A DNA stretch of 42,928 nucleotides from Pelagicoccus sp. GTDB lineage: Bacteria > Verrucomicrobiota > Verrucomicrobiia > Opitutales > Opitutaceae. The stretch spans positions 1-42,928 of the forward strand of contig JANQRJ010000034.1 in the NCBI GenBank assembly GCA_028284635.1, written 5' to 3'. Shown in pieces: positions 141-18,421 of the stretch (the first letter of the stretch is position 1; each line of letters starts with the position of its first letter). Both the position numbers and the translations under genes were made by a program. The notes beneath the pieces are model-generated. The model made no database searches. It had not been told where the DNA came from and was given only the letters and a program-made list of their open reading frames with translations.

Positions 141-156
141 ACTGAACGCGTTCAGT
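141..156. promoter_or_regulatory. Perfect 16-bp palindromic operator, LacI type
   Basis: ACTGAACGCGTTCAGT is a perfect palindrome with a central CG, the architecture typical of LacI-family operators. It lies 145 bp upstream of the TonB receptor start. The half-sites recur exactly at 18406-18421, next to a lacI gene. Binding is inferred from this match and from position. Confidence 0.65.
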
Positions 157-280
157 ATGTCGGGCTTTGCGACTTTGTAAATATGTGCCTCAACTTTGCG
201 TTTTCGATTTCGCGCGCTTTATTCGCGTGAAGTTTCGGTCTCTTAGTGGATCAACCCATTAAATCCCCTATACCAAACTA

Positions 281-300
281 CTAACCCAACCCTAAAAAAT
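281..300 (+). promoter_or_regulatory. CA-rich leader just upstream of the receptor start
   Basis: CTAACCCAACCCTA ends six bases before the ATG and no Shine-Dalgarno sequence is visible. The two lyase genes carry the same CCAA block (CCCAA in two of the three) exactly 11 nt before their ATGs (3187-3190 and 6233-6236). It may be a translation enhancer or an untranslated leader motif of exported proteins. Confidence 0.4.
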
Positions 301-2514
301 ATGATGAAAAGAAGTGATTCTTTTTCAGTGGCTTCCTTTGTCTCGGTCGCCGCTTTTATGGCTGCTAGCATTCCGCTTTCGGCCCAAGACGACGGCGATG
401 AGCAGATTTTCACTCTCGATCCTTTCACGGTGTCCTCGGAAGGCGATGTTGGCTACCTTTCTCCTAATTCCGTAAGCGCGACGCGCACGGCCATCAGCTC
501 GGTCGAGTTGCCCTTTTCGCTTCGCACGCTGAACCAGGCGTTTATGGAGGATACGGGCTCGGTGGATTTCAACGACAACTTCAGGTACGTTGCTGGGGCT
601 ACAGCAGCTCGCCAAGGCCCCTCTCAGGTAAGCGGTCGCGTGAACCTGCGTGGATTCACTACTATCGATACGAAGCGAAATGGTTTCGTCGTTCGGGGAC
701 AAGGCATCTACAACAATGCCTACATCGAGCGTATCGAGATCCTCAAGGGTCCTCAAAGTGTCTTGTACGGCATCGGTCGCCCGGGCGGCAGCATCAACTT
801 GATAACTAAGAAGCCGCTTTCTATCGACCGGACTGACGTCACTTTTAAGGTAGGCAGCTACGATTACTACCAAGCAACCGTCGATACGGGCGGGCCGCTC
901 ATCGAAGATACGCTGAACTATCGTCTAGTGGTGGATTACACTACAAGTGGCAGCTATATCAACGGTGTAGAGTCTGAGAGAAACTTCGTTGGAGGTGGCG
1001 TTGAATGGTTCATTTCCGACATGACGAAGCTCAGTGTCGATTTCAACATCAACGACTACGATTACGTTGATCCGGCTTTGGTGCCATTCGCGCCGGATGC
1101 AGATGGCGTGAGAAAAGAAGCGCCTGGGTTGGATCGAACTTTTTCCGCTTTGGGTAACGACCACAATTTTGACTCGACCTACGACGAGACCGCTTTGTGG
1201 GTAACCTTAACCCACAAGTTCAACGACACGTGGGCCGTTCGTTCGGCCTTCGAGTACCTTGACATCGATCAAGACAGGTATCGCAGACAACGATCTGGGT
1301 TGGCAAACCTCACTGCTCAGACGAACAGGTATCGCGACGAGCTCGATTCCTTTTACGATCGCAGCACCATGTTGCAAACGGATCTGACAGGTACTTTCGA
1401 AATTGGGGATTCGATCACTAACGAGATTCTGATAGGCACTTTGTTTGAGGACAATACGTTTTCTCGTGTTCGCTGGCGGGGCAGGGAAATCGACCAAATT
1501 AACGATGGTGGAACGCCTACCGATCCTAGCGATGATTTTGTGGAAACCGTTATAAATGGCGGTACCTTTAATCTTAATTACCTGGATCCGATCGGTCCGG
1601 TTCGCGTTCCTTCCTTCTTCGGAACCAGCGAAGGAGTGCAAGAAAGTCGCGATCGTGTGAATGATACCATCGTTTTCTATGCTGTCGATCAGATCTCTTT
1701 GATGGACGATCAACTTAAGCTATTCGTAGGTCTTCGCAAGGAAGAGACTGATGAAGTTCGCACGAAAGCGAATGTCTCTGTTGACCCGGCGGTACGACTG
1801 CCGGATTCCGATAAGACTTTCGAGTTCGAGGACTACCAGCTTGGTTTTACCTATCTATTCAATCCGAACACCAGCGTCTACGCCTCGTTCAGCACATCTA
1901 GCAGGAACAACCCAAATTTTGTAGACGACCCCGAAGATGGCGATGGATTCGACATTGGGTACAAGTTCAATCTCAACGATGGTAAGCTGTCAGGCACTTT
2001 ATCTCTCTTCGATATCGAGTTGTCGAACATCGAGAATCGCGACCTAGATGGAAATCCCGCCCTTTCAGGAGTGATCGAATCGAGAGGAGCTGAAATCGAG
2101 CTTCTGTACCAGCCGACAGAGAATCTCAATATCTTCGCAGGCTATTCATATGTAGATTCCGAGGTGCTTTCGGACAACAGGCGTCCTCAAAATGTGGGTC
2201 AACCAGATAGAAACGTTCCGGAGAATTCCCTGTCATTCTGGGGGCGTTATAACTTCGAAGAGGGCACGCCTTTGGACGGTTTTGGAGTTGGATTCGGCTA
2301 TAAGTTTACCGATAGCACTAGAGCTAACAACTCTACGAACACTCATGATTCCTATAGCACGGCTGACGTCGCTTTCTACTACGAGACTGAAATCGGCGAT
2401 AGGGATCTGCGTCTACAACTTCAGGTGCGCAACATCTTCGATGAAGACACTTGGGTCGCCTCTGAGGCTTTGGCTCCAACGGACGTCAGACTTACAGCCA
2501 AGATCGGTTGGTAG
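301..2514 (+). CDS. TonB-dependent outer-membrane receptor
   Basis: 737-residue outer-membrane transporter powered by TonB/ExbBD. Residues 1-29 form a signal peptide ending near PLSAQ. A TonB-box-like segment, FTLDPFTVSSEG, follows, then a plug domain (about 60-170) with RGF and the motif ERIEILKGPQSVLYG at about 145-158. The rest is a beta-barrel ending in Trp737, the aromatic C-terminus used for barrel assembly. The plug resembles siderophore receptors (FhuA type), but in verrucomicrobia this family is also used for oligosaccharides. The shared operator and neighbouring lyases favour glycan uptake; no SusD partner is present. Start ATG 301 is followed by a second ATG at 304. A strong terminator follows, so it is transcribed alone. 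Confidence 0.93.
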   Translation: MMKRSDSFSVASFVSVAAFMAASIPLSAQDDGDEQIFTLDPFTVSSEGDVGYLSPNSVSATRTAISSVELPFSLRTLNQAFMEDTGSVDFNDNFRYVAGATAARQGPSQVSGRVNLRGFTTIDTKRNGFVVRGQGIYNNAYIERIEILKGPQSVLYGIGRPGGSINLITKKPLSIDRTDVTFKVGSYDYYQATVDTGGPLIEDTLNYRLVVDYTTSGSYINGVESERNFVGGGVEWFISDMTKLSVDFNINDYDYVDPALVPFAPDADGVRKEAPGLDRTFSALGNDHNFDSTYDETALWVTLTHKFNDTWAVRSAFEYLDIDQDRYRRQRSGLANLTAQTNRYRDELDSFYDRSTMLQTDLTGTFEIGDSITNEILIGTLFEDNTFSRVRWRGREIDQINDGGTPTDPSDDFVETVINGGTFNLNYLDPIGPVRVPSFFGTSEGVQESRDRVNDTIVFYAVDQISLMDDQLKLFVGLRKEETDEVRTKANVSVDPAVRLPDSDKTFEFEDYQLGFTYLFNPNTSVYASFSTSSRNNPNFVDDPEDGDGFDIGYKFNLNDGKLSGTLSLFDIELSNIENRDLDGNPALSGVIESRGAEIELLYQPTENLNIFAGYSYVDSEVLSDNRRPQNVGQPDRNVPENSLSFWGRYNFEEGTPLDGFGVGFGYKFTDSTRANNSTNTHDSYSTADVAFYYETEIGDRDLRLQLQVRNIFDEDTWVASEALAPTDVRLTAKIGW

Positions 2515-2546
2515 TTTTCGATCTAGTTATCATATAGTTACAGTAG

Positions 2547-2578
2547 AATCCCTCGGCTTCCGGCCGAGGGATTTTTTC
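2547..2578 (+). terminator. Rho-independent terminator of the TonB receptor
   Basis: An 11-bp stem, AATCCCTCGGC with GCCGAGGGATT, and a 5-nt loop are followed by a run of six T residues, 33 nt after the stop codon. Confidence 0.9.
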
Positions 2579-2712
2579 TGTTCGATTCCCTGGAACAGAA
2601 ATGATAGGCGTATTGGCACGACGGTTACGACGTGTCGCGTGAGTTTGGATCCATTCTCTGCCTTTCCGACAAGCTCAAGGCCTTCGACGGGCACGGCGGT
2701 AGGAGCTGTTCT

Positions 2713-2802
2713 CGTCCTTCTGAACGTGTTTTGTTTCCAAACGCTAGTAGGAGGCGAACCTTTTTTCTACGGTCCTTCTCGTTCAAATACCCCCGTACCC
2801 CC
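2713..2802 (+). repeat. Duplicated leader element, copy 1, with operator-like site
   Basis: 90 bp aligned without gaps to 6074-6163, 78 identical by my count. It contains CTGAACGTGTTTTG (2720-2733), a degenerate form of the 16-bp operator, and AGGAGG at about 2749-2754 not followed by a start codon. Differences between the copies fall on all three codon positions, so the element is conserved as DNA or RNA and not as a peptide. It lies about 400 bp upstream of the first lyase gene. Confidence 0.7.
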
Positions 2803-2949
2803 TACATTCTAGAAGTCGCTGTTAGCTGGATTTTCTGTCCAACGCTCGTCGTTAGGAAAAAGTATCTCTCGGTCTATCTACGGTTGGAAGAGGGGATCGA
2901 TGTCTACTGTTTCGAGCAGTCAGATTTTACCCCGAAAACAAAATCGTAT

Positions 2950-3096
2950 ATGAAAAATGGAGTCAGCGATAGCAAGTCACTACGCATCTTCTCCGCTTCT
3001 TTGAAGCTCTTAACCCTTTTGGTGCCTCGCTTCTCAAAAACGATCAGGTTGTCGCGAAGAGCCGAGCTCACCGAGTTCGAATGCATCGGGCAGTGA
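2950..3096 (+). pseudogene. Remnant of a third lyase-like gene, C-terminal tail only
   Basis: An ATG-initiated reading frame of 48 codons ends in SKTIRLSRRAELTEFECIGQ, followed by a TGA. The 6248 lyase ends in SKIRLYLKPPAGGRVEIREF followed by ECVGQ and also TGA, so the last residues of the discoidin domain are recognisably shared. Upstream, 2904-2919 (CTACTGTTTCGAGCAG) matches 6181-6196 in front of that lyase. The simplest reading is a paralogue whose body was deleted, leaving its leader and last codons. The rest of 2579-3201 holds nothing else I recognise. Confidence 0.5.
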
Positions 3097-3144
3097 CCTT
3101 TCAAACTTCAAGGTCGGTCTAAAGCCTTTCTCGAACTCCTCTTT

Positions 3145-3167
3145 CGTGGCGCCTGAACGGCGCCGCG
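3145..3167 (+). other. GC-rich hairpin in the leader of the first lyase
   Basis: CGTGGCGCC pairs with GGCGCCGCG (nine pairs, one G-U) around a TGAAC loop. No T-run follows on either strand, so it is not a classical terminator. It could be a structured 5' leader of the gene at 3202. Confidence 0.4.
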
Positions 3168-3201
3168 AAATTCACCCCCCAAAAAACCAACCCTATAGTA
3201 C

Positions 3202-3969
3202 ATGAATAGAAGTATATGCAAAACGATCGCGCTGGCTTTCCTACTCGCTAGCGCTGCCGCAACGGCCTCCTACGGAACTGTCTTCTTCCAGAACACCGGC
3301 GTCAAGGCGGGCTGGAGCAGCACCTCCGGCGAGCACAACGGCACCACGACCTCGGTCTCCAACCCCACCTACAAGGGCTCCAAGGCGCTGCGCATGCGGC
3401 AGATCTACGATCCCAATTATAACGGTCGCTATCACGCCGAAGCGGCGATAAAGGACATGAAGAAGCGTGGTTGGGAGCGCTATTACGGCTGGGCCTTTCG
3501 AGTCTCTTCCAGCTGGCAGTACGTTAACCAGAACTATTGCATAAACCAGTTCATTGCGAATATCGGATGCCCGAGCTGGCGGCCGACCACGATGACCCAT
3601 TTGCAGGACACCAAGATCCGCACGCGCATCAAGTTCGGCACCAAATGCACTGGCGAGCAGACGACCAACTACAACGCTCTGGCGACCTTCAAGAAAGGCG
3701 TCTGGCATGCCGTGATCATTCGGGGCAAGTGGGAGAGCAACAACACTGGCATCTTCAAGTTCTGGTTCGACTACAAGAAGAAGGTGGAGAAGACTAACTT
3801 GGCTACCACCTTGAACACCGATTCCAAGTTTCAGTTCAGAGTCGGCCTCTACGCGAACGGCTGGCACGACCAAGGCCAGATGGTAGGCACTCAAGGAACG
3901 CGCACCGTTTGGGTGGACAACGTACGGGTGACAAGCACCTACTCCGAAGCCAAGCCCAACAGCTGGTAG
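3202..3969 (+). CDS. Secreted PL20-like polysaccharide lyase
   Basis: 255 residues with a signal peptide of about 23 (hydrophobic LALAFLLASAAATAS-like core). The remaining 230 residues look like a single beta-jelly-roll of the polysaccharide lyase fold (Pfam PF14099 / PL20-like). This call rests on FFQNTGVKAGWS near the N-terminus, YNGRYHAEAA with His78 in the likely substrate cleft, a VWHAVIIRGKW strand, and a C-terminal LYANGWHDQG...VWVDNVRV pattern. PL20 members cleave glucuronan, but the exact substrate cannot be read here. It is a diverged paralogue of 6248-7402 and lacks that protein's discoidin domain. The CA-rich leader ends just before the ATG, with no Shine-Dalgarno. Another concanavalin-like lyase family remains possible. 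Confidence 0.7.
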   Translation: MNRSICKTIALAFLLASAAATASYGTVFFQNTGVKAGWSSTSGEHNGTTTSVSNPTYKGSKALRMRQIYDPNYNGRYHAEAAIKDMKKRGWERYYGWAFRVSSSWQYVNQNYCINQFIANIGCPSWRPTTMTHLQDTKIRTRIKFGTKCTGEQTTNYNALATFKKGVWHAVIIRGKWESNNTGIFKFWFDYKKKVEKTNLATTLNTDSKFQFRVGLYANGWHDQGQMVGTQGTRTVWVDNVRVTSTYSEAKPNSW

Positions 3970-3995
3970 GCCTTCCGTTCGGAAGCCTTTCGATT
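3969..3995 (+). terminator. Probable terminator of the first lyase
   Basis: GGCCTTCC pairs with GGAAGCC (one bulged C) around a GTTC loop, followed by TTTCGATTCGTT, starting at the last base of the stop codon. Confidence 0.6.
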
Positions 3996-4008
3996 CGTTA
4001 TATAAAAC

Positions 4009-4037
4009 CCGCGGATCCCGCTTGGCGGGATCCGCGG
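4009..4037. repeat. Perfect 13-bp hairpin
   Basis: CCGCGGATCCCGC and its exact complement are separated by TTG. There is no T-run on the plus strand; on the minus strand the flank reads GGGTTTTATATAAC, which would fit a terminator for leftward transcripts, but no minus-strand gene ends here. Confidence 0.6.
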
Positions 4038-4171
4038 AAAATGAAACATGCGCGGAATTTCGCTAGACGTACGTTTTTGCACATCGATGCGGAACTAGGT
4101 CCTGATGGAAATGAAATCGCCACGCTCGCTCAGCCCTACCCTGCGGCAAAACCGTAGGGAATGTCTAACGG

Positions 4172-4440
4172 ATTCAGAATAATGATTTTGCTCAAAATGA
4201 TTTTGCAGAATCTCACCTAGGCCACGTGGACAAATTGCTCAGGTCGTCTATTTCGGTGGCTTTTGGCCCAAATTGCGTTCCCTCATCCTCGATGAATCTC
4301 GATTCACCTCGGGTCGAGAGCCGCAATTTTGACTCAAAAGCCCCTCGAAAAGCCTCGTTCCGCAATTTGTCCACGCGGCCTAGTCTTGGAAAGAAGTGGA
4401 GAAAGCAAAATCATTAATGGCAAAATCATTGCTTCGAAAA
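4172..4440. repeat. Inverted repeat family B, interrupted by a nested element
   Basis: The left arm (4172-4210, with two ATGATTTTGC-like units) and the right arm (4404-4440, with two GCAAAATCATT units) are complementary. The same arms occur at 35821-35922 in reverse orientation with only a short spacer between them. Here the spacer contains the 167-bp element at 4217-4383, so this copy looks like the occupied version of the 35.8 kb site. Confidence 0.75.
4217..4383 (+). mobile_element. MITE-like element, copy 1
   Basis: 167 bp beginning CTAGGCCACGTGGACAAATT and ending with the complement of that sequence apart from one base, giving 22-bp terminal inverted repeats. It is over 90% identical to the reverse complement of 8594-8759. 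It encodes no protein. It sits inside repeat family B. This is the structure of a non-autonomous element moved in trans, but no matching transposase is in the window. Confidence 0.75.
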
Positions 4441-4646
4441 ATAATACTATTCGGATCGAAGACGATGGATCCATGACTGCTTCTCGCACACTCGGATGCG
4501 CTTCGAATCAGCGACCCAGAATACTATCCATGATTGGAAGCTGGCTGCCTTAACACTTGCATTGAGGTATATCAAAGACAGAAACATCACCTTGCGTTAG
4601 GTTCCTAAAACACTTATTTTTGAAACGTTCGATTAGATCACGTGCC

Positions 4647-4724
4647 TGTAGGGTCGGCGCTTGCCGCCGCACCGCGTTGGTTTGATCTGTTCTCTGCGGT
4701 GCGGCGACTAGCGCCGACCCTACA
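4647..4724. repeat. Long inverted repeat upstream of the SurA-like gene
   Basis: Arms 4647-4675 and 4696-4724 are complementary at 27 of 29 positions (TGTAGGGTCGGCGC...). The repeat ends 52 bp before the start codon at 4777, so it is in the leader or promoter region. The stretch 4441-4646 shows nothing else I recognise. Confidence 0.85.
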
Positions 4725-4776
4725 CTGGACCGTGCGCATAAATTTCTCCCGTCGCCCCTTTTCGGTGACCTTCCCT

Positions 4777-5901
4777 ATGAAAAAAATAGCCTGCCTGAAT
4801 ATCGCGCTCTTCGCGGCTCTAGGCTGCGCGCACGCAGCCTCGTCCTTCCGTCTCTACGACTTCACGCCCGCTTCCCAAGAGGACAATCCCATCGTGGCTC
4901 GGATCGAGGGGACGCCTCTTGAGATCCCTCTCAGCGAGCTGGAAACGTACTTGGAGCACGATCTGCCCCTGGAGACCTACCAGAGCCTGACCTCGGGCGA
5001 AAAGCGCCAGCGCCTCCCAGGCCTGATCGACGAGTATCTGTTGCTGTGGGACGCCGAGCGGCGGAGCGCCCACCGCGACGAGAAGATCGAGAGCATGCTG
5101 GAAAACACCCGCCGACTGCTCATGGAGGAGCAGTTCCGAGCGGACGTGGCGGAGCAGGGTGAGGAGGCGCTTGCAGCTCTGGTCGATTCGCTTTTCGAGA
5201 AGGCGACTGTCGCGGTCAACCAGGAGAGCTACGACTTGCTGCTCGAGATGGCCAAGGAGGACGACGAGTGGGCCCAGCGCTACTTGGAATACAGCGTAGA
5301 CGAGAACAGGAGGGAAAACGAGGCTCCGCCGCCCAGCCCTCAGTTCGATCCGGAGCAGCTCTCGCGGGTGCTGGCCGTCTGCGACGAGGAGGCGGAGATC
5401 GCGCTGGGATCCTTCATGCAGGCCTACCATGCGATGCCGATCTACGACCGCCCTCGCCTGGGCGAGCTCGAAGGGTTCCATGGCCTTTTGAAGTCGGTTC
5501 TGGAGCCCTACCTGCTTTTCGCGGAAGCCCAGCGTCGGGGCTACCGGGACGATCCGAGAGTGGAGCAGATCTACCAGCAGAACCGAAGCGCCTTGCTGAA
5601 GATGTGGGCCTACGAAAGGCTGTGGGGAGAAGCCGCCGAAAGGATGGAGGCCTTGGAGGCGGGAGAGGACTACGAGCAGCGGCTCATGGACTTTCACAAA
5701 AAGCATCTCGAGGAGCTGTATTCATGGGAAGAGGACGGCCTGAGGCACTACCATCGCTACGAGGCGATCGCCGATCGGGTGCCGCAGGACTACTACGACC
5801 ATCTGGTCGAAGTCGCGGTGGCCGAGCATCTGGAGTCGCTCAGAGGGGAGTTTGAAATATGGGTGAACGAGGGCTTTTTCGAAGAGAAGGGTTCCGACTA
5901 G
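4777..5901 (+). CDS. Exported SurA-like chaperone without a PPIase domain
   Basis: 374 residues from the ATG at 4777, chosen because it opens directly into a signal peptide (MKKIACLNIALFAALGCAHA). The reading frame is open further upstream, but that part runs through an inverted repeat. The mature protein is helical, with two copies of a SurA/parvulin N-terminal-like pattern: LIDEYLLLWDAERR at about 80 and VLEPYLLFAEAQRRG at about 245. No parvulin catalytic domain is evident. A paralogue is encoded at 35983-37122, sharing DNPxV, IPLxE, LFEKAxxxVNQESYD and DPEQLS segments. A periplasmic holdase for the outer-membrane or secreted enzymes of the locus is an inference. Confidence 0.7.
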   Translation: MKKIACLNIALFAALGCAHAASSFRLYDFTPASQEDNPIVARIEGTPLEIPLSELETYLEHDLPLETYQSLTSGEKRQRLPGLIDEYLLLWDAERRSAHRDEKIESMLENTRRLLMEEQFRADVAEQGEEALAALVDSLFEKATVAVNQESYDLLLEMAKEDDEWAQRYLEYSVDENRRENEAPPPSPQFDPEQLSRVLAVCDEEAEIALGSFMQAYHAMPIYDRPRLGELEGFHGLLKSVLEPYLLFAEAQRRGYRDDPRVEQIYQQNRSALLKMWAYERLWGEAAERMEALEAGEDYEQRLMDFHKKHLEELYSWEEDGLRHYHRYEAIADRVPQDYYDHLVEVAVAEHLESLRGEFEIWVNEGFFEEKGSD

Positions 5902-6073
5902 TCCACTGTAACCGCAATATCGTAAAACGCTGCTATAATATTTTTCAGGAGCATGTATCGTCAGAGCAATCGATGGGTTGAAACATCTATATTGTGTAGG
6001 TAGGAAACTCTATATGGCGCAAGTGGGGACACGGTTTAGTCGCAGCCAAGCGTGCTTCGGGGCGCGGTCTTTT

Positions 6074-6163
6074 CGTCCTTCTGAACGTGTTCTGCTTCTA
6101 AACGCTAGTAGGAGGCGAACTCTTTTTCTAGGGTCTCTTTCGTTCAAGTACCCCCTTACCCCT
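6074..6163 (+). repeat. Duplicated leader element, copy 2, with operator-like site
   Basis: Counterpart of 2713-2802. CTGAACGTGTTCTG at 6081-6094 differs from the operator core CTGAACGCGTTCAG at two positions. A further shared block, CTGCTGTTTTGAACAG at 6181-6196, contains the small palindrome CTGTT-TTG-AACAG. The element ends 84 bp before the lyase start, a suitable place for promoter and operator. The gap 5902-6247 shows nothing else coding; a TATAAT at 5934-5939 lacks a convincing -35 box. Confidence 0.7.
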
Positions 6164-6247
6164 TCCGCTTTGGTCTACCCCTGCTGTTTTGAACAGCGTG
6201 CTTGGCCGAAACGGGACACTGACAACCCTAACCCAAGTTAGATAACT

Positions 6248-7402
6248 ATGAATGCTAAAGTGTTAGCAACTACCCTGCTGGTGGCTCTTGCTGCCTCTTC
6301 ATCCGCCCAGGCTGGCGTTTTGTTCTACAATACTGGAAGCGCCAATGGCTGGAGCGCGAACAACATCAACAACAACTGCTCGGTGACAACTACGAGCGTC
6401 ATTGCTCTCGAGGGCACCACATCCATGCGTAGCGAGTGTATATTCAACGGCAACTACAATGGGCGCTACCATGCGATGAAGATAAGAAATCCCTTCGGAG
6501 GAAATGGTTCCACGCGTTGGATCGGCTTTGGCTTCTACTTGTCTAGTAACCACACTTTCGCCGCAGAGTCCACGTGGCTGATGCAAACCATAGCGAAGTA
6601 TGGAGCATCTTTCACGCCCAACATCTGGTTGAAGATCAACGACCGCAAGCTGACACTCACTCGCCAGTTTGGTCCATTGAGTTCGAGGACCAAATCGGAG
6701 GTCGACGTTCTTACGAATCTGCAAAAGGGACGGTGGTACGAAGTGGTTATGAAAGTGCATATGGACGACGACGCTTCTGGCAAGATCGAGGTCTGGATAG
6801 ACGGCACCAAGGAAGTGACGATGAATGGCCCGAACTATTTCGACGGCCGAACGGAAACCCTCAGGATAGACTTAGGGCTCTATTGCACGGGTTGGTATCA
6901 GAAGGACACGCTTCCCGTCCCGGCAGCGGGCACGCGTTTGGTCTTCTTCGACGAATTCCGTCTGGGCGATGCGAATTCGAGCTTTGCCGAGGTGGATCCA
7001 GGACAGGGGGGTGGCGACGCCGACTTGATTTCGGCCGCCACCTATAGCGCCAAGAGTGGTGGTTGGACCAACCATGGTCGCGTACATGACGGCAGCACGA
7101 CGGCCGCTGGGAACTCCACGGCCGATCCGGCCTGGATCGAGTACGACTTTGGCACGAACAGGACCATCAAGACCGCTCGAATCAACGAGGACGATGCTGG
7201 CAACTGGCACGTTGGACAATGGAAGATCAAGTATTGGAACGGCAGTTCCTTCGTCGACGCTTTTTCCTATACGAACTCCACCAATGCCGGCTGGAATTCA
7301 GTGAACTTCACGGATCGAGTCACTTCGAAGATTCGCCTCTACCTGAAGCCACCTGCCGGAGGAAGGGTGGAGATCAGGGAGTTCGAGTGCGTCGGCCAGT
7401 GA
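6248..7402 (+). CDS. Secreted PL20-like lyase with discoidin / CBM32-like domain
   Basis: 384 residues. The signal peptide ends at about 22 (SSAQA). Residues 24-245 form a lyase jelly-roll paralogous to 3202-3969: FYNTGSANGWS, YNGRYHAMK with His75, KGRWYEVVMKVH, KIEVWIDG, and LYCTGWYQ followed by VFFDEFRLGD. After a Gly-rich linker (DPGQGGGDAD), residues 255-384 form an F5/8 type C (discoidin) domain with WTNHGRVHDG, WIEYDFG, and a C-terminal REFECVGQ. Such domains bind carbohydrate, so the enzyme probably stays attached to its polysaccharide. The lyase family assignment (PF14099 / PL20-like) is moderate; the discoidin domain is clear. A strong terminator follows. Confidence 0.75.
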   Translation: MNAKVLATTLLVALAASSSAQAGVLFYNTGSANGWSANNINNNCSVTTTSVIALEGTTSMRSECIFNGNYNGRYHAMKIRNPFGGNGSTRWIGFGFYLSSNHTFAAESTWLMQTIAKYGASFTPNIWLKINDRKLTLTRQFGPLSSRTKSEVDVLTNLQKGRWYEVVMKVHMDDDASGKIEVWIDGTKEVTMNGPNYFDGRTETLRIDLGLYCTGWYQKDTLPVPAAGTRLVFFDEFRLGDANSSFAEVDPGQGGGDADLISAATYSAKSGGWTNHGRVHDGSTTAAGNSTADPAWIEYDFGTNRTIKTARINEDDAGNWHVGQWKIKYWNGSSFVDAFSYTNSTNAGWNSVNFTDRVTSKIRLYLKPPAGGRVEIREFECVGQ

Positions 7403-7470: not shown

Positions 7471-7479
7471 GCCTAACTG

Positions 7480-8593: not shown

Positions 8594-8759
8594 TAGGCCG
8601 CGTGGACAAATTGCGGAACGAGCCTTTTCGAGGGGTTTTCGAGTCAAAATTGCGGCTCTCGATCCGAGGTGAATCCGAGATTCATCGAGGTGAGGGAACG
8701 CAATTTGGGCCGAAAACCACCGAAATAGACGACATGAGCAATTTGTCCACGTGGCCTAG
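8594..8759 (-). mobile_element. MITE-like element, copy 2
   Basis: Reverse-complement copy of 4217-4383 with the same terminal inverted repeats (TAGGCCGCGTGGACAAATTG at the left end). Its right-hand TAG forms the stop codon of the AraC-type gene on the minus strand (8756-8758). Unlike copy 1 it is not embedded in repeat family B, which defines the element's ends. Confidence 0.75.
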
Positions 8760-9535
8760 TCGGGCTTCGTTTGCGATAGGAGGGCTTGCTTGCGGTATTT
8801 GGCGGGGCTGGTTCCGCGGTTTTTCTTGAACATATTGGAGAAATGGTAGCGGTTGCAGAAGCCGCAGGATTCGGCGATATCTTCTATCGTCTTCTCCGTA
8901 TATATGAGCTCGATGCAGGCGCCTTCGATTCTCCTCGCGATCAGGTAGGCTTGCGGGCTCTCTCCGACTTGCTGGCTGAAGAGGCGAATGAAGGCGTTGA
9001 CGTTCATGCTCGCTTCTCGCGCGAGCGCGGCGTTGCTGATCGGGCTTGCCCAATTATCGTCTAGCCGGTCGAGGGCGCGTTTGATGCGCGTATCTTCCTT
9101 GGCTTGGAGAAATCCGGACTCGGGAAGGGCGTCGAGAGCAGCGCCGGCGAGAAGGTTCGCGATTAGCGAGAGGCGGGTCGAGGGAGGACGCGAAGCGCGA
9201 AGCGCGGCTATCTTTTGGAGCAGAAAATCGTTTGCCGGAAAGCTATGAAGGTTTTTCGAAGAGGCGAGATAGCGGATGCGCGAGGTGAAGTGTATATAGA
9301 AGTGAGTCACCGGTCTATCGAGCCTGGAATCGAAATTCGTGTCGGGCGGAACAATATAGAATCTCTTGGGCGAAAGTCTGGTTTTGCGGCCATGGACGAT
9401 GACGGATCCGCCGATCCTGTCGTTCCAGTAGAACCGCCAGTAGGGAGCCGCCAAGTCGTTGTGGTTCCACCGCTTCAGGGAGAGGCTTTGGCAGTCCAGC
9501 ATGCGTATTCCGAAATCGAGTAGCGCGGCTTTCAT
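8756..9535 (-). CDS. AraC-family transcriptional regulator
   Basis: 259 residues from the ATG at 9535; a TTG at 9580 in the same frame would add 15 residues. The N-terminal ~130 residues form a cupin-like sensor (WRFYWNDRIGGSVIVHG, FYIVPPDTNF). The C-terminal ~100 residues hold two helix-turn-helix motifs: NAALAREASMNVNAFIRLFS, and IEDIAESCGFCNRYHFSNMF followed by KKNRGTSPAKYRK, a canonical AraC signature. Divergently transcribed from the GH29 gene across 113 bp, so it is likely that gene's activator. Its stop codon is provided by the MITE-like element at 8594-8759, so the native C-terminus may have been altered by the insertion. Confidence 0.93.
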   Translation of the reverse strand: MKAALLDFGIRMLDCQSLSLKRWNHNDLAAPYWRFYWNDRIGGSVIVHGRKTRLSPKRFYIVPPDTNFDSRLDRPVTHFYIHFTSRIRYLASSKNLHSFPANDFLLQKIAALRASRPPSTRLSLIANLLAGAALDALPESGFLQAKEDTRIKRALDRLDDNWASPISNAALAREASMNVNAFIRLFSQQVGESPQAYLIARRIEGACIELIYTEKTIEDIAESCGFCNRYHFSNMFKKNRGTSPAKYRKQALLSQTKPD

Positions 9536-9648
9536 GTAAAAGATCGGCTTAGTTGAAGGGGAATTTTTTGATGAATGCAAGAATTACGTACAAAATTGGT
9601 TTGATGACGAATTGAAGCTTTGGGGCAATCCGGTTATATCTTATCGTT

Positions 9649-11227: not shown

Positions 11228-11391
11228 GATGGATCACAAATTAACTCAGATGAGAGCCTAATACAGGAAGGCGTTTGCGTTAATCTGCGGTTAGAGAAAT
11301 CCTCTTCGTTTAGCAGCTCGCGTTGAGTCGAGTTTTCAGCTAGCTTATGGAAATCTAGCTAACGCGGCTCGCTCGAATTGGACGCTCTTTT

Positions 11392-11552: not shown

Positions 11553-11554
11553 TT

Positions 11555-13108
11555 TTAGAAATAGATCTCGTCCGAGTCGGCGGCCTGGTGTCCTGCGGAC
11601 TCTTGGGGATCGTTTTGCGGCGTCTCGTCGTTTTCGATTCTCAAGCCGGAAACGTATTCGTTGGTTTCGATGAGGCCGGGTTCCTGGGCGATGCGCTCGA
11701 GTGGAGCGCGGTTGAGCGACACGTTTGCCAGGACTACGTTTTCGATGCGGTTCGCTTCGTTTTCCCCGATAAAGGAAAGGCGCAGGCGGGTGCGGCCGTG
11801 GTAGCGAATATCCTCGAAGCGAATGTCTTCGACGAGGGTTTCTCGCTGGTAGCTTTGGTTCCTTTTGTAGAACTTGATGAAAGTTTTAGTGAGGGCGTCC
11901 CGCTTGTAGTTTCTCAGCTCGATAAGCTGGGGAGCGAAGAGGGGATCAAGAGGCTCTTCTATGCGTATGTCCCGGAAGGATACGTCTTTGATTTGGGCGA
12001 TGTCGTTGTTGACGATGGCGAGGGCGGCGTGGGTGAAGTGCACGATGTCGCAATTGGAGAACGACACGTTACGCATGTGGCGGCAGAGGCTTTCGGTGCC
12101 GAGCTTGAGGGAGCGGCCCCAGTCGCACCAGAGCACGCAGTTTTCCACCGTGACGTTTTCCACGGGCTCGAGGTCGGTCGGGTAGTCGGAAGTCTCTTCG
12201 CGGCCTTTGATGACGATGTTGTCGTCGAAGGCTCGTATGAAGCAGTCGCTGATGTGGACGTCTCGGCAGTTGACAAGGTCGATCCCGTCGGAGTTGTAGC
12301 GCCAGTTGCCGATTATCTTCAGATTGCGGATGCGGATGTCTGAGCATCGAGTCATGACGAGGGTCCAGAAAGGGGAGTCCTTTATAATGACGCCGTCGAT
12401 CTCGATGTTTTGACATCCTTGCAGATGAGTGTGGTAGGGGCCGCGGGGGAAAAGGGCTTCGGGGTGGTCGGGTTCCAATCCAGGCGGAGCGGTCCGTTCG
12501 AAGGTGGAGGCGTCGATGATGCCGCGACCGAGTATCTTGATATTCTTCGCTTCCTTGGCTTCGATGATGGCGTGCACGTGGGCGCCGTCGTCCACGTAGA
12601 GCGTTTCGTTGTCCTTGAGCTCGATCTTGCCTGGGCGGTGTACCCCAGGGCCGAAGTAGCGGGTATGGGGAGAGTCCTTCTCAGGGCGCGCTTTTTCGAT
12701 GGGGTTTACGAAGAGGTGCAAGGCCTTGCGAGCGCCATTTATCTCGCAGGTATAGTGGCCGGGGCCGTCCACTTGGAAGGTGACGATGCCGATGTTGCGC
12801 CGGGGCGTTTCGATGCGTGGCTCGATGCGGCGCGATGAGGGGCGGATGTTGGCGAAGAAAACGTCGTGCAGGTAAGTGACTTTCAGGCTGACTGGTCCGT
12901 CGGCGTCGAAGGTCGCGAACGAGGCGAGCTCGCTTTCTTCAATGGGCCGCTGATGCCCGGGCCACCATTCGCTGACCATGAGGGAGGAGACGCGGGCAGT
13001 CTGGACGAAGACTTCCTGACCGTTGGCCGTTACTTTATAGTCGGGAGAGGGGGCGACGCCTATGGGCGCGTCTGCCGCGATGATGCGGGTATTCGATTCG
13101 GATGCCAT
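11555..13108 (-). CDS. GH28 polygalacturonase-like beta-helix hydrolase
   Basis: 517 residues. An N-terminal beta-sandwich-like region (1-140) precedes a right-handed beta-helix (about 150-480). GH28 catalytic signatures are present in modified form: NSDGID (272-277) for NTDGxD, FDDNIVIK with Asp295-Asp296 for DDCIAI, and GRSLKLGTES at about 335-345 for the GHGxSxGS segment. The pair of aspartates needed for inverting hydrolysis is kept. GH28 enzymes act on galacturonans, rhamnogalacturonans and related uronide linkages; the substrate here is not determined. No signal peptide. A LacI-like site lies at 13246-13259. Confidence 0.88.
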   Translation of the reverse strand: MASESNTRIIAADAPIGVAPSPDYKVTANGQEVFVQTARVSSLMVSEWWPGHQRPIEESELASFATFDADGPVSLKVTYLHDVFFANIRPSSRRIEPRIETPRRNIGIVTFQVDGPGHYTCEINGARKALHLFVNPIEKARPEKDSPHTRYFGPGVHRPGKIELKDNETLYVDDGAHVHAIIEAKEAKNIKILGRGIIDASTFERTAPPGLEPDHPEALFPRGPYHTHLQGCQNIEIDGVIIKDSPFWTLVMTRCSDIRIRNLKIIGNWRYNSDGIDLVNCRDVHISDCFIRAFDDNIVIKGREETSDYPTDLEPVENVTVENCVLWCDWGRSLKLGTESLCRHMRNVSFSNCDIVHFTHAALAIVNNDIAQIKDVSFRDIRIEEPLDPLFAPQLIELRNYKRDALTKTFIKFYKRNQSYQRETLVEDIRFEDIRYHGRTRLRLSFIGENEANRIENVVLANVSLNRAPLERIAQEPGLIETNEYVSGLRIENDETPQNDPQESAGHQAADSDEIYF

Positions 13109-13245
13109 GAGTGTGTCGATGTTTGAGATGGAGGGCTACGTTTAGAGTTTACTGCGATTCATCATATTTTAGAGAGCGTCCAATCATTGGAGACCTACAT
13201 GCTATTTCCCTGATGTGGGAGCGCGTTTGTCACGCGATAGTAGAG

Positions 13246-13259
13246 TTCAAACGTTTCAA
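13246..13259. promoter_or_regulatory. Candidate LacI-type site upstream of GH28
   Basis: TTCAAACGTTTCAA has a palindromic core, AAACGTTT, with a central CG and lies about 140 bp upstream of the GH28 start. It differs from the ACTGAAC-type operator. Weak evidence, from sequence form and position only. Confidence 0.3.
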
Positions 13260-13276
13260 AAATGAGGTGTTTTAGG

Positions 13277-13356
13277 AACCGCGAATGGACGCTAATAGAC
13301 GCGAATGATCTTCATGTTGTAGGAAAATTCGCGTCTATTAGCGTCCATTCGCGGTT
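13277..13356. repeat. Perfect 30-bp inverted repeat, CGCGAAT family
   Basis: Arms 13277-13306 and 13327-13356 are exact complements with a 20-nt loop. Each arm is itself built of about 10-nt near-repeats (CGCGAATGGA, CGCTAATAGA, CGCGAAT). Related copies are at 17116-17220 and 24097-24179. It separates GH28 from DUF2264 and may act as an attenuator or mRNA-stability element. Confidence 0.95.
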
Positions 13357-13392
13357 TCAAATTTCTCGCCTGAGCATCCACCAATTATGTTT

Positions 13393-15453
13393 CTAGCATT
13401 CGCGCAGGCCGTCGATGTGGTTGAAGTCGATAGTATAGCGGGCTTGGTCCTGGGTTTCTATGGTGGCGCCGAGAGTGGAGCCGGAAGGGAGCGTGTCATG
13501 CAGGGCGAGCGACTTTATGGGATTCAGCTCTTCTGCGGTCCAGGGGCTGTCGTCCGTTTTGTGAAGCATGGCGGTGATCATAAGCTCCATGGGCGGGTTT
13601 TTCTGCAGCCGCGTTTTTTCGAGGTAGAGGACCGTGCTCTCCTCCGCTTCCGCGTTTCGTCCGCCATGGACCTTGCAGCGAAGCTGGTCGAACCCTCCAT
13701 AGCATACCAGGGCGAGCTGGCGGCCCTGGATGCGCGCGGTGGCGATGAGACGATCTCCTAGGCGTTGCTGTTCGACGACGGCGGGCTGGTCGTCGAGGTG
13801 GGGCAAACCGAAGTGGGCGAGGGTTAGGTCGTATTCGAAGGCCAGGCGGCTGCGGTCGATGCGTATCACTCCGAGCGGCACGGCGATTTCGGCTAGATCG
13901 ATGATATAGCCGCTGCCGTTGTTGGGCGGCTTTCGAAATACGAGCTGGCGGTAGAGAACCTCTTCTCGGTAGCCATTGTATAAAACGCTGACGGGCGTGG
14001 AGTATATATTCGGGTCCTTCTCCGTTTCTTCCCTGCTCGCTAAGCCGAGGTAGAAGGTGGAATCGCGGGAGTCGAGATCGCGTGGGTCTTTGCTCCGGTA
14101 GCAGTATTCCATAGCGGTGCCGCCTGCGGGATCGTGGTCCTCCCAGGGGAAGTCGGTATTATAGCAAAGGCGGTTGTAGTTGTGGTCCTCTTCGTTGACC
14201 TTGGCGGGCTTTATCTCGGACGCTCCGGTTTCCGAGTAGTTGACGAGGGCCATTCCTGGCTTGGCGAGGACATATTGGTGGGGTTGCTTTCCGAAGCTGT
14301 CCCAGGGTCCGTCGTTCTCGATGGCGGTCCAGAAGGGGGAGCTTTCCGGCAGGGTGAGGGCGAGGAAGGGCATGAACATGGTGAAGGGGCTCGCCGCGCA
14401 GGAGTAGCCCTGGAGGAGGAACTCGCGGTGCCCGTAGAAGCCGAGGCTGGGGACCTCGTTGTCGTAGAAGTCCTCTCGACCGGTGAATTGCAGGACGGCT
14501 CCCGAGCAAAGCCTACGGGCCCAGCCGGGATCGAAGGGGGCGTCTCCCTTGAGCATGAATGCCATGGGGAATCCGCCGGCCACCCAGAGACGGTAGCAGA
14601 TGCTGCGGGCCCACATGTTTATATGGCCTCGGCGGGAGAAGAGGTAGGGAAAGGAAGCCATGAGCTGCCGGGCGCTTTGCTCGTAGGTTTCGGCGATCTC
14701 GGGATAGTAGTCGTCGCCGAAGGTTCTGCACCACACCGTCTGGTAGATGGAGTACATGCTGATGGTGTAGTAGTTGTAGTTCTGTTCCAGATACCAGCCG
14801 TCTCCCGCGTGGTAGGAGTTGATCCAGCGGAGGTGATCCTTGAGCAGGTCTTCGTCGATCTCGTAGCCGTTTCTCTTGAGAAACGACATCATCTCTATGT
14901 TGAAGAAGCGCCAGTTGTTTTGCGTGGTGCGGTGGTGGGCCCACTTGGAGAGGGTCTGGGCTATAGCATCCTTTTGCCCCTGATCGTAGCTGGGCCACAC
15001 GAGGTCGGGCATCAGCAGGAGAAACATGCAGAGACCGCCCAGCTCGCAGGTGAACTGGTAGGTCGCGTCGGGCAGGTCCTCGGGCATGGGGATGGAGTTG
15101 GGATGGCCGGGAGTGAGGGCCCGGCGCAGATGGTGGGCGTAGTAGTCAGCCAGCTTGATACCGCGGATTTCCACCTCCGGTTCGACATGCAGGAGCGGGC
15201 CGGCCAAGGCGAAGGTGCGGCGTAGGCCTTCGAATTCGAGCGAGCGGTACCTCCAGTCGGGCGAGCCGGGCTGAGGGTAGGTCTTGCCCGGCACTTCGGG
15301 AAAAATGATATAGTCGTCGAACGAATCGACGTGGACGAAGGCGCGGTTCAAGACGTACTTGGCGCACTCGATATAGTGTTTGCGGGTCATCCCGGTAAAG
15401 GGAGAGCGGTCTTGGTCGGGGTTTTCGACGCGGTAGTAATCGGCTTGATCCAT
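13393..15453 (-). CDS. DUF2264 family protein, candidate glycoside hydrolase or lyase
   Basis: 686 residues matching the DUF2264 family (Pfam PF10022). The N-terminal ~400 residues are helix-rich, consistent with an (alpha/alpha)6 barrel, with NNWRFFNIEMMSFLKRNG, AGDGWYLEQNYNYYTISMYS and ASPFTMFMPFLALTLPESSP patterns. The last ~250 residues are beta-rich. I recall that some members have been placed in a CAZy beta-glucuronidase family (GH154), but I cannot confirm that here. No signal peptide, so it acts in the cytoplasm. Same strand as GH28, with a 30-bp hairpin between them. Confidence 0.82.
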   Translation of the reverse strand: MDQADYYRVENPDQDRSPFTGMTRKHYIECAKYVLNRAFVHVDSFDDYIIFPEVPGKTYPQPGSPDWRYRSLEFEGLRRTFALAGPLLHVEPEVEIRGIKLADYYAHHLRRALTPGHPNSIPMPEDLPDATYQFTCELGGLCMFLLLMPDLVWPSYDQGQKDAIAQTLSKWAHHRTTQNNWRFFNIEMMSFLKRNGYEIDEDLLKDHLRWINSYHAGDGWYLEQNYNYYTISMYSIYQTVWCRTFGDDYYPEIAETYEQSARQLMASFPYLFSRRGHINMWARSICYRLWVAGGFPMAFMLKGDAPFDPGWARRLCSGAVLQFTGREDFYDNEVPSLGFYGHREFLLQGYSCAASPFTMFMPFLALTLPESSPFWTAIENDGPWDSFGKQPHQYVLAKPGMALVNYSETGASEIKPAKVNEEDHNYNRLCYNTDFPWEDHDPAGGTAMEYCYRSKDPRDLDSRDSTFYLGLASREETEKDPNIYSTPVSVLYNGYREEVLYRQLVFRKPPNNGSGYIIDLAEIAVPLGVIRIDRSRLAFEYDLTLAHFGLPHLDDQPAVVEQQRLGDRLIATARIQGRQLALVCYGGFDQLRCKVHGGRNAEAEESTVLYLEKTRLQKNPPMELMITAMLHKTDDSPWTAEELNPIKSLALHDTLPSGSTLGATIETQDQARYTIDFNHIDGLREC

Positions 15454-15554
15454 CGGACGTGAATACTAGCGGATACGCTCGTGTGGGCGAAAGCTTGGGC
15501 GAGCGCAACTGTTGCCTAAACGGTGAGGAAGAAGGAGGGCGAAAGCGACGGATT

Positions 15555-15671
15555 CTTGGGGAGCGCACGCGTCCCGCGTGCTCGGTTGGGCGTCTCGCCC
15601 AACCGTACTCGTTTAGATGTATCTTGGACGAGACGCCCAAGACTGCCTGCGAGACGCAGGCGCTCCCCAAG
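15555..15671. repeat. Inverted repeat with CTTGGGGAGCGC ends
   Basis: The outer arms CTTGGGGAGCGC (15555-15566) and GCGCTCCCCAAG (15660-15671) are perfect complements. Inner pairs include GTTGGGCGTCTCGCCCAAC and GACGAGACGCCCAAG. It fills much of the gap between the first lacI gene (ends 15703) and DUF2264 (starts 15453). Confidence 0.85.
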
Positions 15672-15702
15672 GCGAAACGCTTTCGCGGCCGGACGAAGGG
15701 CT

Positions 15703-16749
15703 TCAGGCGTTCTTTGGCGAGGTTTTCGGCGGCAGCATTCGGGCGCTCTGGCCGTCTATCCATTCGCATTCCACGAGCACGGCTTTTGGTGCCTTGGGGA
15801 TTCCGAATTGGCGCAAATGAAGTTGCTCGACGATGAGGTCTACGGCGGCGGCTCCGATGTCGGGGGTGTGGTGTTCGACGCCGCTGTAGCGTTCCGGGGT
15901 AGAGCCATCCAGGTTGAGGATAGCCAGGTCGCTTCGAATAGCTTTCTTCTCCGAACTTAATCGTTTTGCCGTCTCCGCGTTTGTGGTGACCACTACCTCA
16001 GGCTTGCTCTTGGCTTTCCATTTCGCGTATTCGTCGGACGAATACCTGTCGCTTTCCAGTATTGGGACACGGTCTCTAGAGGCGATCCGCTGGTCGCGCA
16101 GCAGGTATTCGGAGAGGTAGCCGTGGTCGAGGCGGCGGTCTCCCCCAGGCATGAACAGGCCGATGCGTCGGTACCCGCGGAGTTCGAGCGCCGCCAGGGC
16201 GATCCGCATGGCGTGAGCGAAGTGACTGCTCGCCCGGCTGATTGCCGGCTCAGCGAGGGAGTAGCCTATGGTGACCGCGGCGAAGCGATCCCACTGCATC
16301 TGCATTGAACTGAGCCCATCCGGTAGTGGGGCGATCAATACGCCTCGGATTCCGCGGTGATACAGGATCTCGCCGAGACGAGCCTCGCTCATCTCTTTGT
16401 CGCCAAGCCAGAAATGCTGCAGGTCGTAGCCGTGCTGCCTGGCGCGACTGCGGGCGCCTTCGTAGCATTTCAGGATGGACGGGGAGTTCTTCCATTCCTC
16501 TGGGCTCGGAAAGCAGGTAACGAAAGCGATCGGCATTAGGGAGACGGACTCTCCGGCGAAACGCAAATGACGCATGAGTTGGGAGATTTCCGGATCGGGG
16601 CAGTAGTTCAGCTGCCTGGCGATACGGTGGATTCGGCTGCGGGTCTTTTCGCTGATTTTCGGATCGTTGCGCAAGGCCCGCGAGACGGTACTGCGCGACA
16701 CTTGGGCGTGGTTCGCGATTTGCTGGATCGATATCCTTTTCTGCGGCAT
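15703..16749 (-). CDS. LacI-family transcriptional regulator 1
   Basis: 348 residues. The N-terminal helix-turn-helix is clear: ISIQQIANHAQVSRSTVSRA followed by LRNDPKIS (6-33). The linker PEISQLMRHLR replaces the classical hinge helix. Residues 70-335 form a periplasmic-binding-protein-like sensor with RGIRGVLIAPLPDG, GYRRIGLFMPGGD and the C-terminal GAAAVDLIVEQL. It is expected to repress sugar-use genes until an oligosaccharide or monosaccharide binds. Upstream of DUF2264 and GH28 on the same strand, so those are its likely targets. Same length as the second regulator but clearly different in sequence. Confidence 0.94.
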   Translation of the reverse strand: MPQKRISIQQIANHAQVSRSTVSRALRNDPKISEKTRSRIHRIARQLNYCPDPEISQLMRHLRFAGESVSLMPIAFVTCFPSPEEWKNSPSILKCYEGARSRARQHGYDLQHFWLGDKEMSEARLGEILYHRGIRGVLIAPLPDGLSSMQMQWDRFAAVTIGYSLAEPAISRASSHFAHAMRIALAALELRGYRRIGLFMPGGDRRLDHGYLSEYLLRDQRIASRDRVPILESDRYSSDEYAKWKAKSKPEVVVTTNAETAKRLSSEKKAIRSDLAILNLDGSTPERYSGVEHHTPDIGAAAVDLIVEQLHLRQFGIPKAPKAVLVECEWIDGQSARMLPPKTSPKNA

Positions 16750-16844
16750 GGCGTTTCCGGTGGACTTACTTTAGCCTCCGGCAGCGTGTGGAAAAATCTC
16801 CAGAAAGCGAGTATCCGGCGCATCCTGTTTTGATTATGGGGGGA

Positions 16845-17008
16845 GTTTGCCCACGGATCTCACAGATCAACACAGATCTTTTTTGCATTGATCTGCGCGA
16901 ATCAGTGTTATCTGTGGGCCAAATATCGTCCTATTGATTTTCCCATAAGTTAAGACGTTCTCCTCAGTTCACTTGATTTCCGATTTCAAGCGAACCAACC
17001 ACTGATGG
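16845..17008. repeat. 160-bp direct repeat, copy 2
   Basis: Direct copy of 11068-11227: TTGCCCACGGAT at the left, ATCTGTGGGCC in the middle and GCGAACCAACCACTGATGG at the right. The two copies are 5.78 kb apart and flank GH28, DUF2264 and lacI 1. Confidence 0.85.
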
Positions 17009-17068
17009 CACCGATTGGCACTCATACATAAATGCTCATCATCAGTGTTGATCAGCACCATCAGTGGT
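16998..17068. repeat. ACCACTGATGG inverted repeat
   Basis: ACCACTGATGG (16998-17008) is complementary to CCATCAGTGGT (17058-17068), with further imperfect pairing inside. It overlaps the end of the 160-bp direct repeat. Confidence 0.75.
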
Positions 17069-17115
17069 CAAGTCTCCTGTACTTAACTCTAATGTTTCAA
17101 AAACAAGCGTAAGAG

Positions 17116-17220
17116 TAACCGCGTACCGAGCAAAGCGACACATTCATGGACGCTAATACACACGAATGATTCCTCATTTGAAGCTTTGATTCGCGTGTAT
17201 TGGCGTCCATTAGCGGTTAA
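17116..17220. repeat. CGCGAAT-family inverted repeat with an insertion in one arm
   Basis: The right arm (17189-17219) reads as the complement of TAACCGCTAATGGACGCCAA and continues with ATACACGCGAATC. The left arm carries the same sequence but is split by about 24 nt (GTACCGAGCAAAGCGACACA and flanking bases). It is the same subfamily as 24097-24179. Confidence 0.75.
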
Positions 17221-17256
17221 AAATTTTCCGTTTTCGTTTGTACCCATTTTTTGAAT

Positions 17257-18303
17257 TCATTTCACCCTCTTCAGCGTAAATAGCCCTTCCTTCCAGACTC
17301 CGGGAGTGAGGATGGAGTTGGGCTGGCTGAACAGGCCGCGCTCGTTGCGGTTGAGCTGGCCGACGACGATGTCCACGGCTTTGGCTCCGATGGTTTCCCA
17401 CTGCTGGATGATGCCGTTGGTTTCCATGCGCGTTTGATCGCCGCAGTCGAGATTGGCCAGGCCTACCTCCTCGGGGATGCGAATTCCGGCGGATACGAGA
17501 GCGCTGGTAGCTTGGTTTCCGCTACAGATGATGGCATCGGGCTTGCAGGCGGCGCGCCAGGAGAGAATCTGGGAGCTGACCTCTTCGTTGTGCTTGAAGC
17601 CTTCGACGAAGCATACGGGGCAGGACTGGATCTTCGGTCGATGGAGACTGGCGTAGCTGAGATAGCCTGCCGCAGTCACGTGCTTGGTGCGTTCGCTGAG
17701 CTGCCGAGGCAGGACGAGGCCGATCTTTCGGTATCCGAGTTCGGCTATTTTTTCCAGGGCGTGCCAGATATCCTGATACAGGTGTTCCGCCGAGTGATGC
17801 AGATTCGTGATGAGGGGGTTGTAGCCGACGGTGGCGGGCGCGAACTTGTCCCAGTCGATCCCGATGGAGTCGCTGTCTTGCAGGCGCTGGCCGAAAACCA
17901 CCAGACCGTGGATGTTGCGCGTCCGCAGGACTTGGTTGAGTCGCCTTGGGCGTTTGGCGTAGTCCTCGGTGACGTGTTCCTCGATCTTGTAGCCCAGCTC
18001 CTCGGCGCGAGCTTTGACGCCTTCGAAGTAGCCGCGAAGGGTGGGGACTTCGTGGCTGATGGGCCGTCCGCTGATCAGGGCGATGGTGGAGAAATCCTCG
18101 ACGCGCTTGCGCGAGCGCACGTAGCTCATGTTGGCCGCGACGAGGGGATTCTTGCGATAGCCGATCTCTTCCGCTGCGTCTTGGATTAGCTTGCGAGTGG
18201 CCGGCGGGATCTCGGGGTCGTTTCGCATGGCCAGCGACACGGTGGACAGGGCAAAGCCTGTCTTCCGGGATATGTCTCGCAGGGTTGGGGACTTCTGGGG
18301 CAT
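17257..18303 (-). CDS. LacI-family transcriptional regulator 2
   Basis: 348 residues. The helix-turn-helix is at 7-33 (LRDISRKTGFALSTVSLAMR). The linker is PLVAANMSYVRSRK. The sensor domain includes NIHGLVVFGQR, LGYRKIGLVLPRQ, PDAIICSGNQ, IPEEVGLANLD and a C-terminal GAKAVDIVVGQLNRN. Divergent from the GH141-like gene, with the operator at 18406-18421 lying 103 bp upstream of its own start. It is therefore the best candidate to bind ACTGAAC-type sites, controlling itself, GH141 and, through 141-156, the TonB receptor. That assignment is inference. Confidence 0.94.
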   Translation of the reverse strand: MPQKSPTLRDISRKTGFALSTVSLAMRNDPEIPPATRKLIQDAAEEIGYRKNPLVAANMSYVRSRKRVEDFSTIALISGRPISHEVPTLRGYFEGVKARAEELGYKIEEHVTEDYAKRPRRLNQVLRTRNIHGLVVFGQRLQDSDSIGIDWDKFAPATVGYNPLITNLHHSAEHLYQDIWHALEKIAELGYRKIGLVLPRQLSERTKHVTAAGYLSYASLHRPKIQSCPVCFVEGFKHNEEVSSQILSWRAACKPDAIICSGNQATSALVSAGIRIPEEVGLANLDCGDQTRMETNGIIQQWETIGAKAVDIVVGQLNRNERGLFSQPNSILTPGVWKEGLFTLKRVK

Positions 18304-18405
18304 GTCTTGGTCTCGGGTGCCGCTTTGCTCTGACGGGCTTCCCTAGGGTATTCGCAGCAGGATAGGCGAATGCTCGAGGCGGGCAACCGACAATGCTCGG
18401 TTTTT

Positions 18406-18421
18406 ACTGAACTCGTTCAGT
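18406..18421. promoter_or_regulatory. LacI-type operator in the lacI 2 / GH141 divergent region
   Basis: ACTGAACTCGTTCAGT has the same two 7-bp half-sites as the perfect palindrome at 141-156 and differs from it by one central base. It lies between the divergent lacI 2 and GH141-like genes. Confidence 0.7.

Follow-up and report, generated by a model that had tools for sequence, protein, structure and literature searches.

The question raised by this locus is whether two short palindromes, one upstream of a TonB-dependent receptor gene and the other between a LacI-family regulator gene and a divergent GH141-like gene, are operators of one and the same regulator. The window, by which we mean the whole stretch of DNA that was analysed (42,928 nucleotides of Pelagicoccus sp., contig JANQRJ010000034.1 of GenBank assembly GCA_028284635.1, contig C52 in our numbering), belongs to a draft genome of 4,568,046 bases in 104 contigs, listed as 96% complete. 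From the sequence, position and rarity of the two palindromes, we regard it as probable that both are operators of the LacI/GalR-family protein encoded beside the second one, here called LacI 2, which would control a local regulon.

Two palindromes with identical arms

Site A (ACTGAACGCGTTCAGT, positions 141..156) is a perfect 16-bp palindrome with the centre GC. It precedes the gene of the TonB-dependent receptor (301..2514, plus strand; Pfam TonB_dep_Rec_b-barrel and Plug), and 144 bases lie between the site and the ATG. Site B (ACTGAACTCGTTCAGT, positions 18406..18421) has 7-bp arms identical to those of site A, around the centre TC. It is located between two divergent genes, which encode LacI 2 (17257..18303, minus strand) and a GH141-like beta-helix protein (18545..20719, plus strand; Pfam Beta_helix and GH141_M). 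Counted upstream from the start codon of LacI 2, the site occupies 103-118 bp, and the gap to the start of the GH141-like gene, a TTG according to the list of open reading frames, is 123 bases. No strand is assigned to either site. The sequence-only reading of this DNA, which had reported the two 16-mers with their coordinates, the perfect symmetry of site A and identical 7-bp half-sites about 18 kb apart, proved accurate on all these points.

The pattern common to both sites, ACTGAAC-NN-GTTCAGT (ACTGAACNNGTTCAGT), was searched in 57 genomes. In the genome of the window it matched sites A and B and nothing else, and the remaining 56 genomes scanned contain no match; with the reversed control pattern, none of the 57 genomes gave one. 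The many random copies that the sequence-only reading had named as a sign against a regulon did not appear, the two copies found being both upstream of genes. When up to two mismatches to ACTGAACNCGTTCAGT were allowed in this genome, sites A and B were accompanied by three sites with 2 mismatches, which are at background level since the reversed control yielded 7 matches. The looser pattern TGAACNNGTTCA gave 8 sites in the same genome as compared to 2 for its control (each site counted once). In the six of them that are outside the window the outer bases are not AC/GT, and inspection by eye places most of these six inside open frames.

LacI 2 and the genes at the two sites

LacI 2 contains an N-terminal LacI helix-turn-helix domain (PF00356, 34.6 bits, cut-off 27) and a periplasmic-binding-protein-like sensor domain (Peripla_BP_3, PF13377, 38.8 bits, cut-off 26.5), and its recognition helix region reads GFALSTVSLAM. 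The hinge motif A-R-x-L is common in the LacI family and does not define it. This motif was not found in LacI 2, nor in 163 of the 169 LacI proteins of the set described below; considering that it is missing across most of the set, LacI 2 stays in the LacI family. LacI 2 has an Asn where 136 of 166 proteins of the set have a Leu, at a position which, from an alignment by eye, we take to be L56 of LacI.

The positions of the two sites were compared with a survey of 1303 LacI-family regulators (PMC4052901). According to this survey, operators of the family are even palindromes of 16-22 nt, an autoregulatory site precedes the regulator's own gene in 72% of cases, and more than 75% of the sites fall at -140 to -30. 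Sites A and B both have the form of such a palindrome, site B stands before the gene of LacI 2 as an autoregulatory site does, and its distances to both start codons fit the range given.

The GH141-like gene heads a run of ten co-directional genes that ends at 35774. The genes behind it encode three sulfatases, two MFS_2 sugar transporters, two oxidoreductases (one of the GFO/IDH/MocA type, the other an FAD oxidoreductase), a DUF1961 protein and a protein with no Pfam match. The GH141-like protein matched the PDB entries 9rx2 (E 7.6e-54) and 5mqp (BT_1002, E 1e-34), and no signal peptide was seen in it on inspection by eye. At the other end of the proposed regulon, the receptor gene is followed on its 3' side by a hairpin (2547-2573) and then a T run, so that the receptor is probably made from a single-gene transcript.

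On this arrangement, repression would be the mode of control. When no ligand is present, a dimer of LacI 2 would occupy site B and repress its own gene together with the divergent GH141-like gene, and a dimer at site A would repress the receptor gene. Once bound by its ligand, which is probably an oligosaccharide set free from the substrate of the locus, LacI 2 would leave both sites, and uptake and breakdown would then be switched on together. The control may extend further into the ten-gene run.

The sites might instead be operators of another regulator, which we consider unlikely. The genome contains 25 LacI domains, the gene of a second LacI protein (LacI 1, 15703..16749, minus strand) adjoins that of LacI 2, and the window also encodes an AraC-type protein (8756-9580). 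Site B, however, is placed in the divergent region of LacI 2. No similar palindrome was found upstream of LacI 1, whose recognition helix (VSRSTVSRAL) is unlike that of LacI 2 and falls outside the helix class linked to such palindromes; LacI 1 is not the favoured binder. As for the remaining LacI proteins, all 25 LacI upstream regions of this genome were checked and only that of LacI 2 contains a perfect TGAAC-NN-GTTCA, and the nearest other DNA-binding domain of the genome is 51% identical to that of LacI 2, among the matches listed.

Palindromes before related LacI genes and elsewhere in the window

Elsewhere, full-length matches to LacI 2 reached 38% identity at best, in two overlapping genome sets (57 and 372 genomes), and a search of genome contigs yielded none. 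Footprinting on orthologs was therefore impossible, and the upstream regions of many related LacI genes were compared instead; what this comparison gives is support at the level of paralogs, which is a drawback for the assignment to LacI 2. The first set consisted of 83 genes (80 fetched loci and the window, with all 25 genes of this genome included) and the second of 61 genes, chosen like the first by overall similarity. A third group of 30 loci was chosen by similarity to the DNA-binding domain of LacI 2, and the pooled total was 169 non-redundant genes.

Within 300 bp of the first 83 genes, AAC-NN-GTT occurred 17 times, as compared to 4.5 ± 2.1 in shuffles, and AAC-N-GTT, with a 1-bp spacer, 10 times (4.4 in shuffles); the remaining spacers were within about 2 standard deviations. 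In the second set, AAC-N-GTT was found 10 times (4.1 expected) and AAC-NN-GTT 3 times (4.3 expected). For this reason AAC-NN-GTT was dropped as an operator rule for the whole family and kept, post hoc, for the G[FY][AGS] class of helices alone. Several of the AAC-N-GTT cases come from near-identical LacI genes with the helix SKSAVSLAL: L210, L214 and L267 have GTTCAAC-A-GTTTAAC, with a 1-bp centre, about 176 bp upstream, and weaker forms of it are present in L191, L217 and L219. These genes suggest an odd spacing for another helix type.

Over the 250 bp upstream of the pooled 169 genes there were 9 perfect palindromes with arms of at least 7 bp and a 2-bp centre, as compared to 2.4 expected from shuffles, and for arms of this length no other spacer from 0 to 8 showed as large an excess. 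Four LacI genes with helices of the G[FY][AGS] type are preceded by such a palindrome: L079 (GFSKATVSLAL) by TTTAAAC-CC-GTTTAAA, which lies between the LacI gene and a divergent sulfatase gene, L104 (GFGRATVSMAL) by TTTGAAC-CC-GTTCAAA, L119 (GFGRSTISLAL) by GTTGAAC-CT-GTTCAAC, and L235 (GYAVSTVSLAL) by ATCGAAC-GT-GTTCGAT. A palindromic NNAAC-NN-GTTNN was present within 250 bp in 5 of the 12 genes of this class, LacI 2 included, and in 3 of the 157 others (Fisher p 3.7e-5); when the window was left out the contrast was 4/11 vs. 3/157 (p 3.2e-4), the p value being only indicative because the class was defined after the hits had been seen. Among the other LacI genes of the genome, L066 (contig C88) is preceded by a perfect palindrome with the classical central CG, CAGTTGACGTCAACTG, which starts 40 bp before the LacI start.

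A pattern derived from L104 and L119, TTGAAC-NN-GTTCAA, was then scanned in 30 LacI-rich relatives and gave 21 sites, as compared to 9 with the control pattern; for 20 of these 21 sites the neighbouring genes were inspected. Four sites are directly before LacI genes (G055 2966494, which is L119; G012 2730303, which is L104; G012 7151198; G085 2141386). In the gene next to the last of these, the LacI helix-turn-helix scored 22.4 bits, short of its cut-off (27), and the sensor domain passed with 26.9. Next to the site at G055 2142720 come first a PEP-CTERM gene and then a LacI gene; among the matches listed, the DNA-binding domain of this LacI protein is the nearest to that of LacI 2 (69%). Three sites of the same genome (2954383, 2966494 and 2985802) fall within 31 kb. 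The first of them has a GH43-like gene (28.5 bits, cut-off 32.2) on one side and an ABC transporter gene on the other, and a second LacI-type gene is nearby; the third is flanked by divergent sulfatase and heparinase-II/III-like genes.

One possible generalisation, which we put forward tentatively and think somewhat doubtful as a rule, is that the helix class G[FY][AGS]xx[TAS][VI]S[LM], part of a large expansion of LacI proteins specific to this lineage, reads TGAAC/GTTCA-like half-sites around a 2-bp centre other than CpG, and that this reading is coupled to the changed hinge. If this were true, the helix sequence could serve to predict the operators of dozens of glycan regulators that are still uncharacterised in these genomes. 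Of the present results, the link from helix to operator is the one that may prove useful beyond this locus.

Several of our results weigh against the assignment of both sites to LacI 2 or against the helix class as its support. The distance of site A from its gene slightly exceeds the range common for LacI sites. The central CG pair, typical of the family but not universal (1173 of the surveyed regulators have it, 49 have another pair and in 29 the pair is degenerate; PMC4052901), is absent, the centres GC and TC being flanked by a fixed C and G. The enrichment of AAC-NN-GTT was not repeated in the second set of 61 genes. With arms of at least 8 bp the 2-bp spacer does not stand out, since spacers 4 and 7 each gave 3 palindromes vs. 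0.6 expected and spacer 2 gave 3 vs. 0.7. Seven of the 12 members of the helix class have no NNAAC-NN-GTTNN within 250 bp, and among these are L100, L198 and L077, whose helices count among the nearest to that of LacI 2; in the case of L100, a like site sits before the gene ahead of it. Considering that TTGAAC-NN-GTTCAA was taken from L104 and L119, two of the four sites beside LacI genes are recoveries and two are independent, and most of the other sites of that scan do not adjoin LacI genes, several being inside open frames. Finally, the best NCBIfam model for the receptor was TIGR01783, a TonB siderophore-receptor subfamily (219.7 bits, just short of the cut-off of 223.5). The receptor thus resembles siderophore receptors and its glycan cargo is unproven; the label of glycan receptor derives from its surroundings and from the shared operator. 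The regulon of uptake and intracellular breakdown proposed by the sequence-only reading is therefore retained in part: LacI 2 as the binder is supported by its gene beside site B and by the like palindromes before LacI genes of similar helix in relatives, whereas the cargo is in doubt for the reason just given, and the word intracellular depends on the signal-peptide reading by eye.

The two sites could also be chance or structural palindromes (a hairpin or a fragment of a repeat) that serve no regulator, and we judge this quite improbable. A repeated identical palindrome (arms of at least 7 bp, spacer 0-6) was obtained in just 15 of 2816 dinucleotide shuffles of the window. This null is lenient, since palindromes with arms of at least 7 bp number 52 in the real window (nested registers counted apart), as compared to 22.6 on average in the shuffles. 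This abundance speaks for chance, as do the failed enrichment in the second LacI set and the nature of the second of the two repeated pairs in the real window (32 and 20849), which belongs to a dispersed repeat. Repetition alone is consequently no proof of an operator, and rarity in the genome is the stronger argument: chance fits poorly with a pattern that occurs just twice in the genome, each time upstream of a gene and at a distance ordinary or nearly ordinary for an operator, and with the presence of like sites before LacI genes in some relatives.

The dispersed repeat is a palindromic element of about 165 bp (by eye, 13 aligned copies). It ends in inverted repeats resembling GCGCATAGGCGTCAACTTAA / TTAAGTTGACGCCTATGCGC and has in its interior a hairpin, GCAACGACGNAGCGTTGC, with 92 matches in this genome at no more than 1 mismatch. 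The copies of the element in the window are at about 1-103 and 20749-20919. Since many copies mark the ends of contigs, as one does at the start of the window, the element probably broke the assembly.

Two weak candidate sites, both unproven, with 3 mismatches each and assigned no strand, precede polysaccharide lyase genes of the window: TCTGAACGTGTTTTGT (2719..2734) before the gene at 3202-3969, and TCTGAACGTGTTCTGC (6080..6095) before the gene at 6248-7402. Each of these sites is within a copy of a 93-bp leader block, whose two copies (2709-2801 and 6070-6162, 87% identical) precede the two lyase genes and are the only matches in this genome at E 0.001. The block contains CTGAACGTGTT, a partial match to the operator, and the two lyases are 27% identical over 230 residues. 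A perfect 22-bp palindrome, TTATCGGATAATTATCCGATAA, is present at 40628-40649, about 240 bp past the 3' end of a GH2-type gene.

If the assignment to LacI 2 is correct, one of the 25 LacI genes of a probable glycan-degrading bacterium would receive a likely set of targets, and an otherwise unassigned TonB receptor would be tied to a sulfatase-rich locus. The operator pattern, being specific and linked to a type of recognition helix, would be testable across many relatives.

Comparison with known operators and regulons

LacI operators of the Cra/PurR type are even 16-bp palindromes with a central CG. Sites A and B share with the Cra site the even 16-bp symmetry and the outer TGAA...TTCA at the same spacing; in contrast, their four central bases are C-NN-G, where Cra/PurR-type operators have N-CG-N. 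Verrucomicrobia are not mentioned in the main text of the survey of LacI-family regulators (PMC4052901), and we found no publication that joins LacI, Verrucomicrobia, operator and fucoidan, a result that does not show the operator to be unpublished. The redox regulator Rex was examined as a rival because a Streptomyces Rex operator, ATGTGAACGCGTTCACAA (PMC5355995), has the 12-bp core TGAACGCGTTCA in common with site A, but its outer bases differ (GTGAA, as compared to CTGAA in site A), the genes of the locus are not respiratory, and a search of this draft genome, with its listed completeness of 96%, did not find the Rex N-terminal domain PF06971, so that a Rex regulon was rejected as hardly credible, a diverged Rex gene or a missing part of the genome being the remaining loophole.

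The closest comparison at the level of the regulon is with SuxR of Xanthomonas campestris (PMC1790865). SuxR is a repressor of the LacI/GalR type whose targets are an amylosucrase, an inner-membrane transporter and a TonB-dependent receptor, and it is over-expressed in its own mutant. Here too a LacI-family repressor would act on a TonB receptor, a glycan enzyme, a transporter and itself. The two systems differ in that our receptor gene is 18 kb from the gene of the regulator and the enzyme is GH141-like. Control of this kind is ordinary LacI-type control, of a familiar sort, and the example itself is new.

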